A stretch of DNA of 64,000 nucleotides from Batrachochytrium dendrobatidis JAM81 (taxonomy: Eukaryota; Chytridiomycota; Chytridiomycetes; Rhizophydiales). The stretch lies in NCBI RefSeq assembly GCF_000203795.2, contig NW_006281101.1, positions 124,001 to 188,000 on the forward strand, read 5' to 3'. The translations under genes were made by a program, and so were the position numbers. A model generated the notes under the pieces. The model worked only from the letters and a program-made list of their open reading frames with translations, ran no database searches and had not been told where the DNA came from. This document shows, piece after piece, positions 56,461 to 64,000 of the stretch (positions within the stretch are counted from its first letter, which is position 1; every line of letters starts with the position of its first letter).

Positions 56461-57998
56461 ATGAGAACAGATCGAAGCGTCCAGTTTTCAACATTAGTTC
56501 AGACTCTACGCAAGCAGACATTAGAAAATAAAGACTCTTCTGGTATGAAAGTATTGACTCTTGTAGTGTGACAGACTCTTCTAGTGTGACTTGACTGACT
56601 CTGACTTTCTGTTTAGATGGAAGTCATGTTCTCCGGCCATTCAAACCAAAGCATGTCAGCGACCCTTTCCTGCAACAGGCCAACAAGATAGTAATGTTCA
56701 TGTCATGATAGTCATTGCACTTCAAGTCCACTAACTCGACCTTTAAGTTGTCGCATATATCAAGGCTGAACCACTACATTCTCACTATAAGAAAACCTTA
56801 TCTGCAATTGGGCAACATGGCATCTGTAGCTTCTTTCGAGCATGCATTGCATGCTCAAGAGCATCCATCATCCACCATGTTACCTACTGCTACACCCATG
56901 GAAGTATCACTCATGACTGATGAGAAAAAGGATGTGCTTGACATGCAGATTCAGGCTATCATCAAGGGTTGTTTGACTATGATTCAAGCTCTCTCAAAAC
57001 TAATAGGTAACTACTTGATTGTATCCACTCTCAATTTATAATTCTAACTCTTGAATATGGTCTTGAACATGAAAAGATGCGAATGCAATGAATGACAAAA
57101 CAGATGAAAAAACTGGGTTTTTGAGCATGTTTGAAACTCGAACAAAACTTGCTGGAACAATCCATTTAAAATCCATGCGAGAATCTGTAGTATGGATTTT
57201 GGAGCATCGACTCATGTCAACATCGAATATCCAACAAGCCATGCAAGAGTATCGACTTGAAAGAAGTATTCGTCATCAGGAAAGGTTGGATCTTGTCATG
57301 TTGTTGATTCAATTCCTTATTGTACTGACTTGTTTTAATCCACTAGTTATCTACGTCAAGATTTAAGTCATCTTAAAGTGTTATTACCCAAATCTCCTGA
57401 TCGTACAACCGAGGCACGCTCGTCGTCTTTGAGTCGTTTTGTTCCCAATGCAGTCAAGGCTCGCGTAGGTCGATTTAAAAATAATCGATTGGATTCATCT
57501 GGATCGGGTCGAGAATCTTTAATTCAATCCGATCCCATTTTAACTGATTCATCTCCTCAAAACACCTCACCACAACATTCATCTACTACCAATACAACTC
57601 CATTCAAATTCGATTTTCCAGTCGATCCCTATGCATCCAACAGTATGGACGAGGATGAGTCTCAAATGACGTTCACTGTAGGAGAACGTGCTGCTCTCGA
57701 ACAAGACAACTCCACCATGATGGACCAACTCGAATCCACATTAACTCAAGTACGAACTGCTACTCAATCCCTCAACGAAATCGCTCAACTGCAATCAACT
57801 CTAGCTCATCATCTCCAAGCACAATCCGAAACGATTGATTCCATTTACGATGATGCTGAAAAAGCAAACCAAACCATTGCCAAAGGCAATGACAATTTGA
57901 AAAGCGCGCAAAAGTATTTCGGTGGTCCACGATGGTGGGTGTTGTATGTTTTACTGACTATAAGTGGATTGTTACTACTTTTAGATTCGTTTTTTTAA
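56461..57998 (+). CDS. UFE1: ER Q-SNARE of the syntaxin-18/UFE1 family
   Basis: Tail-anchored SNARE for Golgi-to-ER retrograde fusion. Exons 56461..56542, 56617..56690, 56748..57006, 57077..57284 and 57347..57998 join in phase to 424 residues. The N-terminal domain reads DRSVQFSTLVQTLRKQ, FKPKHVSDPFLQQANKILSHI (in parts: FKPKHVSDPF, ANKILSHISRLNHYI), as in syntaxin 18. A Ser/Thr/Pro-rich linker precedes the SNARE helix LEQDNSTMMDQLESTLTQV...IAQLQSTLAHHLQAQSETID (cited in parts), followed by KGNDNLKSAQ and a single C-terminal membrane anchor WWVLYVLLTISGLLLLL with a two-residue lumenal end. The linker is longer than in animals. It lies tail-to-head 67 bp after the EST1-like stop codon. Confidence 0.92.
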
Positions 57999-58352: not shown

Positions 58353-60279
58353 TTACTTGCGATTCTCCCCAGTTTTTTTAGTAGATGAGGTTGCCAAAGA
58401 CTGCGGATCAGATACAGTATTGTCAAGAGTGGTGGGTTTGATACTCAATGCATCCAGTTTGTGGTGGATATGATGTGGAAGAGGCAAGGGGTTTACAATT
58501 TTTAAAGTCTCGGTTTCAAATTGAGAGTCTAAATCAGCAGTGGAAGAGTAGCCAGTAGACGAACTCGCCTCATCGCTGGTAAATATCAAGTAAGAACTGT
58601 CGTTTTCAGAGTCGGATGACTTGGAGTTCATTTGATCACTTTTGGGCGATCGTTGAGCAGCCTGACCACGAAGTTCGTGACGACTCCAAGAAACTCGGTA
58701 GTTTGCAAAATCATCTGTTGGTGTGGTATAACTCATTGAGGATTTGGTCGCACTAGCTATAGTAATTGCATCCAAATGTCCAGCACCATGTTGGTGAGAA
58801 CCTGACGCTGCTTCGGATTTGACGGGAGAGCCATTTTTTCCTGAGCCGCCCAGTCTTGAATCTAAAGGAGATGTTCTTTTTCCGTGAGATGAATTTAGCT
58901 TTGTTGGTGATTTGGACAAACTCTCGCCTCGTCTAGGAGACTTTGAATGACGAGAGCGTCGTTTTGCAGGGGAACGAGATCTTGATACAGCCATGGCACT
59001 ACGAGACTCTCTATCATTCCAATCCACGCGATAGCGACCAAATTCTGAAGCAGAGTTTGGTAAAGCACCCAAAGCAGATGTTTGAAAGCCAGAACTAGCA
59101 AACGACCCGATGGCTTCAAACATTCCTGGGGTTTGGTTTGGAACTTGGTACTATAAACATAGTGTAACAATGAGTCAAACACTAGTTTTTTATATGGATC
59201 AAGAATGATATGTACCTGAGACCAGTCACGATCGAGTTTAAACGTGCGTAAAACAAGATGAAGCTCGTTCTTGTCGAAAACGGCCCACCAAGAAGCCATG
59301 AGGTCCTTGACTCCATCCGACATTTCACCACTAATCAAGAGTGTATAAAAAGAATTTAGCAACGTGATATTCAACATCCATCCAAGTATACGTACAAAGG
59401 CATAATGGAGCCATCAAAGAAGCGAGACATTTTCCATGGTTTGGTAGATCCAATAAAATGTACAATGGAAATGTTGGCACTATAGTGATGAAAAGCAGGC
59501 AGATAAGAGTAAAACGCAGATGGAGTCACATTGAAAGTGAAGGGTAAACGACCAGTGCGAGGATTAACAGGAGATTCACACGACCATGATGAGAAGAACG
59601 AATTAAGTAGACCTTGGTCACCTCCTGAGGGATATGAAGAAATGGTTAGATATGACAATCAGAGCGAGTTGAGGAAAAGTAAACGATAGAATTTATAATA
59701 AAAGCGAGTTGAAAATGGACTCGAAACTTGATGAGCAGCAATGAACACACCATCAAAACTAGTGTTGTTGGCAGCGTATTCGAGCAATTGATGAAAAAGG
59801 ACAGCGCAAGGTTTTGTGACAAAGACACCAGAATTGAAGCAGTCTGGCCAACCAGCATCAGGAGCAGCAGCAAAGACAACAGACTCTTGCTCAACGTATT
59901 GAAAAAGACAATCGATGTTACGCTGTACCAGGGTATCAGCATCCAAAAACACAATCCGACTATAAGGAAGAATATCAGGATTCCATAAATGCAGTTTAGT
60001 GAAGGTAGCAAACAAGTCAGGTCTTCCGAGTAGATTTAAGTTGTCATTGCTGTTGGTTAGTAATTGCTGAACGGGAATGACTTTATCATAAACAGTGAGC
60101 AGTGTTTGAATGGCAGCATGTCCGATGTGATCTTGAGAAACAATTATAACTAAAGGATAAAGAGTTGAAGTTTGACGAATGGAAGCAGCAAGAACAAGAG
60201 CACCAGGCAAGTAAGACTCGGTAGTCAGTAGACTGACATAGGCATACGAGAATGGTTGCATTGCAGTCGAGTCCAACAA
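58353..60279 (-). CDS. GYG1: Glycogenin, self-glucosylating primer of glycogen synthesis
   Basis: GT8 glycosyltransferase that builds the glucan primer used by glycogen synthase. Exons complement(58353..59150, 59216..59330, 59396..59624, 59751..60279) join in phase to 556 residues. Motifs: AYVSLLTTESYLPGALVLA at the start, DAD (113-115) in VFLDADTLV for manganese/UDP, GWPDCFNSGVFV (143-154), SFDGGDQGLLN across intron 1, and FYSYLPAF (214-221), whose tyrosines align with the self-glucosylated Tyr of animal glycogenin. IVHFIGSTKPW closes the catalytic domain. The Ser-rich, basic tail contains two copies of a short motif, YRVDW and YRVSW, and ends without further domain. Its start and RPC2's start share a 519-bp divergent region. 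Confidence 0.95.
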
Positions 60280-60798
60280 TAACTCGAGCGTCGCGTTTGT
60301 TGAAAACTGAAAGTTTTGGCTTGAAATTCCATTTTTGGTGTCATATTCACAAAGTATTCACAAAGTGATTTCTGTTGGGTTTCATTCAATATTCATTCAA
60401 TAATTGTCTTGTTTTTGGAATCAATTCATTTATAATATTCTAAACTGCTTAAATTATACTGTTCATCTATCTAATTCAATCCCATTTCATGGTTTTACTA
60501 TTACACTGCTTTTATATCAAACTCTAATCTCACTTGAAAAAACTATCATCACGCTTTTTGTATACAAATACAACCAAAACAATTCACTTTATAACACTAC
60601 TGCAGACATATTGAAATCATTCATCAATAAATCACTCTTTTTGAATCAAAACTTTAGTCTCGACTGTGCATCAAATGAGTTTTACATTTCATGGTAAATC
60701 CATTCGTTCTACAACTTCATAGAAACTTATCCACGTGATTCGATTCACTGTTTTTCCCAAAATTCAATTTTTCTTGTTTTCAAAAAACTGTTGTGGTC
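60280..60798. promoter_or_regulatory. Divergent promoter region, glycogenin / RPC2
   Basis: The 519-bp gap between oppositely oriented start codons contains AT-rich sequence and the CACGTG at 60732. A 97-codon frame inside it (60404-60697) is Leu/Asn/Ile-rich and looks non-coding. Confidence 0.5.
60732..60737. promoter_or_regulatory. CACGTG upstream of RPC2
   Basis: TCCACGTGATTCG lies 62 bp upstream of the RPC2 ATG; same extended CACGTGA core as near uS19m and MFAP1. Confidence 0.45.
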
Positions 60799-63700
60799 AT
60801 GAACCCAGCTCAGATGCGATCTACTGGTCCTGTTGCCATGATGTTGCCTGCACAAACTCATAAACCCATTTCAAAGGGAAAAGGAAGCTCTCTTTTTTCT
60901 ACCGACATGCATGGAAGAGACGATATGCGCTACGAGGGAAAAAAACTGACGGATCCAATTAATACCGCAGAGGTAATGGGTTTTCCTGTTTTTTTGAATA
61001 TGGAATATAATCAAATATTACTACAAGGCCATTGTAATGAATTCTTGAATACATACTGGAATCTTTTATTGTAAAATGGAACACTATTCTTGCAGTGATT
61101 GTTTTGCTTTGAATTAGATGGTATTCGTTGCGTTGATTAGAATGGATTGCTTCAAATACAATGTTCATACAATACACACAAATCAAACTATAGTCTCAAA
61201 CTGAGGCTATTCTCATTTGAATAACAATACATTATGCAATCACTAGACTCGTTGCAATCCAAATACTGGATTTGACTGCTGCCAAACTCTTGTATTCTAA
61301 AAACTCGAATCTATTCGCGATCTAGTTTAACAATGATTGCACGTATCAGTAATACAACCGTTGTTTTCATACCAATCATGTCACTGGCTGTTTATCATAC
61401 ACTTTTATTTCACATGATTATTGCTTTAATTCAACTTATTCACACATTGGCTACAAATCTCTTCAACTTTATAGGACAAGTGGCGGCTCTTGCCTGCATT
61501 CTTGCAAACAAAGGGACTGGTAAAGCAGCACTTGGACTCATTCAACTATTTTTTGGAAACAGATATCAAATTGATTGTCCAAGCTAATGCAAAAGTAGAT
61601 TCTGATATCGATCCGCATTTTTTTCTTCGGTAACGTCAAATTGTACATCTCTCTAATATTGAACCAATGCATACTAAATTGATCCAATCTTTTGTTTTTG
61701 CCAACTACTTTCCACCTACTCATTAACTAGGTTTTTGGATATTCGCATTAAACCACCTCAAGCTGAAGATATTCAAAAAGGTGTAGTGTATGAACTCACC
61801 CCACAAGAATGCAGATTGCGAGATATTACCTACGCTGGTACAATTTGCGTAGACATTGAATATGTACGCGGGAAGCAAGTTATTGTAAAGCGAAATATAG
61901 AAATTGGCCGCATGCCGATTATGCTTAAAAGTTCCTACTGCGTTTTGACCAACAAATCTCCCGATGAAATTGCTGACCTTGGAGAATGTCCCTTGGATCC
62001 TGGTGTGTTTCATATTTTTAAATTGCACACATATCAACACATTTCTTACTTTATAACATCATCGTATTGTTAGGCGGCTATTTTATTATTCGTGGAACAG
62101 AAAAGGTCATTTTGATCCAAGAGCAGTTGTCTAGAAACAGAATTATTGTTGAAACAGATCGATTCGGCTGCATTTGTTCCAACGTCACCAGTTCTACTCT
62201 TGAAAAAAAAAGTAAAACAATTGTTGCTTGTGGTAAAACAGGCAAAATGGTCCTCAAACACAATTCACTGACAGCAGAAGTTCCCGTCACTGTCATTATG
62301 AAGGTGTGGTTTCTATCAGATTGATGATGTTTTGATTCTAAATTTGATTCAATAGTATCTAATTAGTTGATATGTTTCTAGGCAATGGGAGTTGAATCAG
62401 ATCGTGAAATCGCTGAACTTATTTGCGGTGATGACCTCAAATACTTGGCTCTTTTTTCACCTTCTTTAGAAGAAGGTGCTTCTTTGAAAATTAGTACACA
62501 ACGTCAAGCTCTAGAATACATTGGCGCCAAAGTCAAAGTCACCTTCAAAACTAACCGTGTCGGTATTCGACGAGACTGGGTGGAAGAAGCTCGTGATTTG
62601 CTTGCTACTACTGTTCTTGCACATGTTCCTGTAGAAGCAGATGATGCTGGTGTTTTAAACTTTCGGCCTAAAGCTATTTATATTGCACTCATGATTCGAA
62701 GAGTACTCCAGGCTGTCAAGGAAGGTGGTATTGTCGACGATCGTGATTTTATTGGCAACAAGCGTCTTGAACTGTAAGTTCAATCGCAAATTTGTGACGA
62801 TTTAATCCATAATCTTATTTTATCCCATCAAAGTGATCTAGAATACAAGCATGTAATTAATTACACCTAACTTTTAGTGCTGGACAACTCATGTCACTTT
62901 TGTTCGAGGATTTGTTTAAATCATGGATATCTGCCATCAAGCGAGCTGTCGATATTCAGCTGAAACGAACTAACCGAACCTCACAATACGATGCTGCTGC
63001 TGCTGTGTCTCAAACATCACGGTTTATTACTGATGGCATGTTTCGAGCCATTTCATCTGGAAACTGGAGCGTAAAGCGTTTCAAGATGGAGCGAGCTGGT
63101 GTGACTCAAGTTCTTTCTCGTCTTTCATATGTGTCTGCCTTGGGTATGCTTACCCGTATAAGTAGTCAATTTGAAAAAACTCGAAAAGTGGCTGGCCCTC
63201 GTAGTTTGCAGACATCACAATGGGGCATGATCTGTCTCAGCGGAGATACCGAGGTAGTTTTAGGAAATGGCATGGATATTGTGCTACTAACGGATCTTGT
63301 CGACGGAGCGTGTGTTTCGACAATCGAACCTCGGACTGGTGTGGTGTCGCCTTCGCTTATTGATCATTACTTTGCCAAGGATGCTACACGGGTTCTTAAA
63401 ATCACACTTGATGATGGACGAGTCATCAAGGCTGATCCAGAGCATCCATTGTTTGCTGCCAAAATTGACGAGACTACTCGAGGGTTGACTGGGCAATGGC
63501 TTAGAGTTGAAGAATTGACTGTTGGGCATCATGCGCTACTAGTAAGCCCGCAGCAAGCGTACTGCACTTCTGAACAATGGACACTTACTCTATCAGAGAA
63601 AGAAGTATGTACAGCATCCACTGCTCAGCTTGCCAAGCAACTTTCTGAAATTGGCCTGGTAGATGTGCCTATTCCACTGTCCAAAGTCAAATCTGTAGCT

Positions 63701-64000
63701 CGGTTATTTGGTCTCGTGTTATCTGCTGGTGATTTTAGTGGCAAGCTGTACGTGGAAAAGGATGAAGATGTAACTGCAGTGAATTCAGATTTGACGGCTC
63801 TTGGCTTTAGTCCTGCTCACTGGGTGCGATACCAAGACGATCAGCAAAAATGGTTCAAATGTGACGATAGCAACGGTAAAGCTATTTGTATCACATTAGT
63901 TCCCACAGCAAATGCACTTTTGCAGACACTTGGTGCACATGATGCAGAAAAGCAGCATCAATACTGTTTGCTTCCAAAATGGCTACTGGACGCACCAACT
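60799..64000 (+). CDS. RPC2: RNA polymerase III second-largest subunit (runs off right edge, interrupted by intein)
   Basis: Second-largest subunit of RNA polymerase III, which makes tRNA and 5S RNA. Exons 60799..60972, 61475..61629, 61731..62002, 62074..62303, 62382..62773 and 62878..>64000 all join in phase. Diagnostic RPC2 segments: [86 protein letters not shown]-type block ([10 protein letters not shown]), [20 protein letters not shown] and [18 protein letters not shown]. These match POLR3B rather than RPB2 or RPA2. At codon TGT 63233 the expected CP(S/A)DTPEGE block is replaced by an intein that is still open at the window end. Intron 1 (502 nt) is unusually long and carries a MITE remnant. 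The start ATG fits; the N-terminal 50 residues are species-specific. Confidence 0.96.
61065..61320. mobile_element. Decayed MITE-like element in RPC2 intron 1
   Basis: TTTTATTGTAAAATGGAACA resembles an inner terminus. The following sequence (ACACAAATCAAACTATAGTC, ATACATTATGCAATCA) matches the interior of the elements at 10540-10979 and 46201-46655. No intact right terminus is seen. Confidence 0.55.
63233..64000 (+). mobile_element. Intein in RPC2 (N-terminal 256 residues, open at window end)
   Basis: An in-frame protein-splicing insertion begins at Cys codon 63233-63235 with block [14 protein letters not shown]. Block B is [10 protein letters not shown] (about residues 66-75), keeping the His but with Asp where the canonical TxxH threonine would be. 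Around residues 155-168, [14 protein letters not shown] resembles the LAGLIDADG-type endonuclease block C, so a homing endonuclease domain is likely. The insertion sits in the RNA polymerase motif GMxC(P)xDTPEGE, with the expected C-extein residue a Cys, compatible with splicing. The C-terminal splice block lies beyond the window. I recall a B. dendrobatidis RPC2 intein in intein catalogues; this may be it or its orthologue. Confidence 0.93.

Follow-up and report, generated by a model that had tools for sequence, protein, structure and literature searches.

The gene for RPC2, the second-largest subunit of RNA polymerase III, lies at the right-hand end of the window (the whole stretch of 64,000 nucleotides of Batrachochytrium dendrobatidis JAM81 analyzed here) and carries an in-frame insert, which raises the question of whether this insert is a functional intein and by what route such an element came to be there. 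An earlier note on the window had placed an intein in this gene at the point where TSQWGMI passes straight into an intein start before the Cys of the CPxDTPEGE motif. The in-frame reading at 63233 agrees with this placement: position 1 of the intein is a Cys at 63233, inside the motif, and the sequences flanking the insert are adjacent positions in human RPC2 (7a6h_B) and yeast RPC2 (5fj8_B), with the motif Cys as their meeting point. The gene and its intein are laid out as follows, the borders of exons 1 to 5 being inferred by comparison with the protein record P0001.

60799..60972, plus strand: RPC2 exon 1, holding the start codon (protein match to P0001)
61475..61629, plus strand: RPC2 exon 2
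61731..62002, plus strand: RPC2 exon 3
62074..62303, plus strand: RPC2 exon 4
62382..62773, plus strand: RPC2 exon 5
62878..63232, plus strand: RPC2 exon 6, N-extein part, ending in TSQWGMI and followed by the intein (aligned to human and yeast RPC2)
63233..64000, plus strand: RPC2 intein, residues 1-256 of 488, continuing outside the window as far as G000:C15:188696 and followed there by CPSDTPEGEACG
63233..63271, plus strand: N-terminal block of the intein (from aligned same-site inteins)
63416..63457, plus strand: intein block B, residues 62-75, with Asp for Thr
63695..63742, plus strand: first LAGLIDADG-like motif of the intein, residues 155-170, with Ala for Asp

Since only residues 1-256 of the 488 in the intein fall inside the window and the remainder lies past its edge, the sequence to the right was taken from locus L003 (G000:C15:184001-194000), as the earlier note had proposed. 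The frame of exon 6 is free of stops from 62878 through the window edge to L003:6775, positions 2861-6775 of L003 forming a single unbroken frame of 1304 codons. The intein occupies L003 3233-4696, a length of 488 residues, and its C-terminal end reads ...NHSFFANSIVSHN at L003:4696, with IVSHN as the last residues and an SHN/C junction (the slash marks the splice point). Directly after it the frame continues into RPC2 with CPSDTPEGEACG (CPSDTPEGEACGLIKN), and the complete C-terminal part of the protein follows. The HN/C junction foreseen in the earlier note is thus present, and the outcome named there as contrary to an intein, a missing C-terminal splice block and an RPC2 that never resumes, is the opposite of what L003 contains. 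Two further frames in the window are recorded here in passing. The frame at 59659-60357 on the minus strand, divergent to RPC2, contains DADTLVQRNID and by this motif presumably resembles a glycogenin-type glycosyltransferase, and the frame at 57339-57998 on the plus strand has a C-terminal hydrophobic anchor and is one that we take to be SNARE-like.

The insert scores above the cut-offs of three intein models, Pfam Intein_splicing PF14890 (38.2 bits, cut-off 35.8), TIGR01445 (26.3, cut-off 24.5) and TIGR01443 (17.4, cut-off 15.6). Scored over the entire 1304-residue frame, PF14890 reaches 34.6, below its cut-off of 35.8, and a six-frame search of the genome with this model gave no match at E 0.001, whereas scanning at the protein level and the TIGR models did yield matches. 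The RPC2 of P0001 carries this insert too, in line with the suggestion in the earlier note that other strains be compared; this record is apparently from another strain, with 5 intein residues differing and the compared exteins identical. Because the profile matches exceed their cut-offs and the arrangement recurs in P0001, chance is excluded as the source of the insert, which is a real intein with very little room for doubt. The residues of a class 1 intein are present, namely Cys1, the block B His, the C-terminal His-Asn, and Cys+1, and judged from these residues the RPC2 intein almost certainly splices itself.

The RPC2 intein itself is a less unusual fact than the near-identical intein in RPB2 of the same genome. 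A genome-wide search with the RPC2 intein (23.49 Mb, 33 contigs) found two loci, RPC2 and G000:C32:954768-956231 on the minus strand, which are 99% identical. The host of the second intein is RPB2, of RNA polymerase II, with the junction THWGMV/CPAETPEGQACG; this intein is also 488 residues long, and its insertion residue is homologous to the RPC2 site (THWGMV/CPAETPEG). The two inteins are identical at 1450 of 1464 bases and at 474 of 488 codons, the 14 differing bases comprising 9 synonymous and 5 nonsynonymous changes. Replacement changes are below expectation both overall (5/14, binomial P 0.003) and in intein codons 110-450 (3/10, P 0.004), these being small counts. RPB2 and RPC2 themselves share about 41% protein identity, and dS between them (NG86) is 0.027 in the intein, compared with 1.87 over 365 aligned codons of the exteins. 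At intein residues 243 and 403 the RPC2 copies differ from the RPB2 copies consistently, in both records per gene, so that the two inteins are two real loci; the RPB2 counterpart is P0002, a Batrachochytrium dendrobatidis record to which the compared RPB2 exteins (325 + 377 residues) are identical. The genome search with PF00562 returned three matches, one each in RPC2, RPB2, and RPA2, and so revealed no intein-free spare of RPC2 or RPB2. The corresponding motif of RPA2 is uninterrupted and different (SWGFLCPVHTPDGSPCG).

At the intein borders identity drops sharply, with 45 of the 60 bases directly downstream and 19 of the 30 directly upstream identical between RPB2 and RPC2. Both genes share TGGGGCATG at the junction, then one differing base, then TC/TGTCCT. 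When codons for the same residue are counted, with Met and Trp excluded, 10/16 are identical within 15 codons of the site and 75/158 farther away (Fisher p 0.30), and no co-conversion tract was seen by codon identity in the exteins flanking the inteins. An intron lies 16 codons upstream of the insertion site in RPB2, and RPC2 has no intron there. Among the four protein rows from B. dendrobatidis (Bd), two per gene, within-locus differences number 5 and 4 and differences between loci 5 to 8, with no polymorphism common to both loci.

Inteins at the same residue are found in other genomes. Three protein searches, in each of which about 7990 candidates were scored and hits were counted as 90% cluster representatives, gave 27, 81, and 116 hits, which amount to 175 distinct proteins. 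Screened with a pattern that covers the two junctions at the Bd residue, 37 of these have a same-site intein; among those that the pattern misses are partial records (P0013, P0015, P0020, P0021), proteins that fit it at the C-terminal junction only, proteins with an uninterrupted site, and non-polymerases. Host genes were assigned by comparison of the C-extein with Bd RPB2, RPC2, and RPA2, except that P0015, with too little C-extein, was assigned by its N-side and source label. The nearest non-Bd relative found, in RPB2 of Phlyctochytrium (P0003), is about 56% identical to the Bd intein. P0154 is a divergent RPC2 with an intein at the same residue (residues 147-642), and nine virus-like RPB2 proteins (P0029, P0030, P0031, P0033, P0037, P0040, P0048, P0091, P0094) have same-residue inteins, eight of which keep both LAGLIDADG Asp residues, P0048 being the exception. 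A Woesearchaeota-type rpoB (L021, in a record titled as a bacterium MAG) gives a match over the full query length, apparently a same-residue intein of an archaeal polymerase; such a match was seen in one of 13 related loci, the other 12 having about the length of an intein-free gene.

An intein tree was built from 22 rows (8 RPC2, 14 RPB2), 20 of them from Bd or named fungi and the other two being P0016 and P0018, together with four virus-like rows (P0030, P0031, P0091, P0094); P0020, P0021, P0067, P0154, the archaeal rows, and the remaining virus-like rows were excluded. With host genes as labels, the RPC2 labels require at least 6 changes on starred branches, close to the number for shuffled labels (mean 7.0, 121/500 as low). 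A single clade of all 8 RPC2 inteins is rejected (p-AU 1.2e-13), as is a single group of the 6 Coemansia RPC2 inteins (p-AU 1.9e-6), whereas a C-extein tree made by a quick method (21 rows, without P0015) sets RPB2 and RPC2 apart with an SH-aLRT of 100. Separate trees for the splicing blocks and for the central part (20 rows each, without P0016 and P0018) mix RPB2 and RPC2, each needing 7 changes; in the central part 6 of these are imposed by starred branches, in the short splicing-block tree only 2. Because the RPC2 inteins are not one clade while the host genes separate cleanly, the intein has very likely been copied between RPB2 and RPC2 within genomes. Individual pairs illustrate the pattern. 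The RPB2 and RPC2 inteins of Coemansia sp. RSA 1933, a closeness seen before the tree was built, are 97.6% alike with exteins 42% alike, and the inteins of the cross-gene pair P0012 (RPC2) and P0011 (RPB2) are 92.7% alike; by comparison, the RPC2 pair P0012/P0005 has exteins 97.3% and inteins 74.8% alike, and the RPB2 pair P0011/P0008 exteins 99.0% and inteins 77.1% alike. Both genes of one genome are represented only in RSA 1933 and Bd, the other Coemansia rows coming from differently named strains.

The earlier note had also remarked on an Asp in place of the usual block B Thr, a substitution evident in the intein alignment at residues 62-75 and one that could speak for a former intein which has lost splicing and is tolerated as an insertion domain. 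The same Asp occurs in 6/22 same-site tree rows, the four Bd rows, Phlyctochytrium P0003, and P0016, and Thr in the other 16, as well as in the virus-like and archaeal rows of the alignment. According to a review, block B "usually contains His and Thr" (PMC7765530), wording that makes the Thr usual and not defining. Since it is also found in the Bd RPB2 rows, P0003, and P0016, the Asp is on this distribution characteristic of a lineage, not a lesion confined to the RPC2 gene, and therefore probably compatible with splicing; in Bd the genes that carry it are essential, and the genome search turned up no intein-free copy of them. A loss of splicing is further opposed by the retention of Cys1, the block B His, the terminal His-Asn, and Cys+1 in both genes, by the shortage of replacement changes between the copies (5 nonsynonymous against 9 synonymous), and by the position of the site in the fork domain near the active site (Goodwin et al., 2006, PMC1635734), so that this reading is very improbable. 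An assembly chimera or a pseudogene, which the fall of the window edge within the intein might have suggested, is more improbable still, given a frame open to the stop, a complete RPC2 on a contig of 1.7 Mb, separate records in which each copy recurs (P0001 for RPC2, P0002 for RPB2), and the published report of the 488-residue RPB2 copy (Goodwin et al., 2006, PMC1635734).

The intein contains two LAGLIDADG-like blocks, where the earlier note had seen one, the second lying beyond the window; they read LFGLVLSAG and FLGALFGGNG, both without the canonical Asp. The motifs end in Ala and Asn in 4/4 Bd rows, representing both copies, and PF14528 found no match in Bd in either the protein scan or the six-frame genome search (among relatives P0003 and P0031 score over the cut-off, P0016 under it, and P0007 and P0054 give none). 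Asp ends both motifs in 3/22 tree rows (P0003, P0005, P0016) and in the four virus-like tree rows. Altered motif states are common to the members of a pair in Bd (A/N) and in Coemansia sp. RSA 1933 (S/N), and P0011 and P0012 share Asn in the first motif and the same altered second motif (GGGND). Members of the P0004/P0013 pair have in common only the Asn of the first motif, the second having Cys in one and Ser in the other. The P0005/P0008 pair, in which a working nuclease is possible, reads D/D in its RPC2 copy and D/G in its RPB2 copy. Because altered residues are common to pair members, the last copying in Bd probably took place after nuclease loss, and the same would hold for RSA 1933 and P0011/P0012; copying at that stage is better accounted for by gene conversion between the copies than by the nuclease of the intein itself.

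The explanation preferred here, with moderate confidence in the whole, is that a homing nuclease seeded one of the two genes, that within the Bd line one intein copy was then made from the other, and that ectopic gene conversion across the common 1.46 kb would have kept the RPB2 and RPC2 inteins alike. The conversion step would no longer need the nuclease, which in both copies has lost its two catalytic Asp residues, and Coemansia appears to show the same process. That conversion continued after the death of the nuclease is somewhat likely. Counting against the preferred explanation is the lack of locus-shared polymorphism in the four Bd rows, ongoing conversion being unseen at that depth, so that a single recent jump also fits. 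By that account nuclease-driven homing carried the intein once, recently, into the empty site of the paralogue, and the nuclease died later with no gene conversion involved; the bases flanking the junction are common to RPB2 and RPC2, and some relatives (P0003, P0005, P0016) do retain both Asp residues. It must nevertheless accommodate the Ala and Asn replacements found in both Bd copies, by a nuclease death that was either identical twice or earlier than the copying, and is a possible but rather unlikely alternative. It is decidedly unlikely that the intein was acquired twice, independently, from a single external source (another fungus or a virus). Virus-like and archaeal polymerases do have same-site inteins, but no non-Bd relative was found above about 56% identity, the four virus-like rows are distant on the tree, and scans of viral contigs, one with the Bd intein and one with P0031, yielded no relative; the virus-like rows themselves are only putatively viral.

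Once the nuclease of an intein is dead, the intein itself is generally expected to decay. In Bd a single intein lineage is found in two essential genes that are paralogues; apparently it was copied without co-conversion of the exteins, and its two copies were kept alike after nuclease death. If concerted evolution of this kind is true, dead inteins could persist and be refreshed, and intein trees would follow genomes and not host-gene orthology. The RPB2/RPC2 pair would also offer a way to study ectopic gene conversion in fungi by experiment. A more speculative idea arises from the Cryptococcus Prp8 intein, the splicing of which is reported to be stalled by metal or by Cys1 oxidation (PMC6805012). 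Since one lineage is kept near identical in both second-largest subunits, conditions that stall splicing might hold back assembly of Pol II and Pol III together, concerted evolution having made a joint switch; this is a long shot.

Among known systems the closest is the Bde RPB2 intein, allele RPB2-c, of 488 residues (Goodwin, Butler and Poulter, 2006, PMC1635734), to whose lineage the RPC2 intein belongs. The two agree in length, in species, and in the homologous residue of the sister gene, and the published upstream intron (17 columns in the paper) corresponds to that found 16 codons upstream in JAM81 RPB2; the report concerns RPB2 only, and the available portion of it gives no Bd RPC2 intein. 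Coincidence as the source of the equal length of 488 residues was considered and rejected, both loci being present in the genome. InBase, we presume, may list a Bde RPC2 intein. Among the openly accessible papers listed by full-text searches, none dealt, by title and abstract start, with a Bd RPC2 intein or with an RPB2/RPC2 exchange. The RPC2-a intein of Dictyostelium (Ddi) is likewise in RPC2 and in the fork domain, but at column 853 as against 843 for Bde RPB2-c, which by the columns of the paper implies a different residue, and is about 20% identical to Bde RPB2 (PMC1635734). The Phlyctochytrium RPB2 intein (P0003) shares insertion residue and family, but is 56% identical and keeps both LAGLIDADG Asp residues; the Coemansia RPB2 and RPC2 inteins also share residue and family, but are 34-42% identical to that of Bd, and P0005 among them keeps both Asp residues. 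In Bodo saltans virus the genes for both large subunits of RNA polymerase are described as containing inteins, seemingly without an active nuclease (PMC5871332). Ectopic intein movement has been regarded as very rare, ectopic sites being without flanking homology (Goodwin et al., 2006, PMC1635734). Twenty-one nuclear RNA polymerase inteins have been counted, with chytrids among the hosts and Bd given as intein-containing, its genes unspecified in the portion of the paper available (Green, Novikova and Belfort, 2018, PMC5784728). For the fungal GLT and CHS inteins, nuclear inteins that show 48.3-56.9% similarity and reside in different host proteins, the same authors proposed intragenomic transfer; the Bd inteins, by contrast, are 99% identical in their bases and occupy homologous sites in paralogues.
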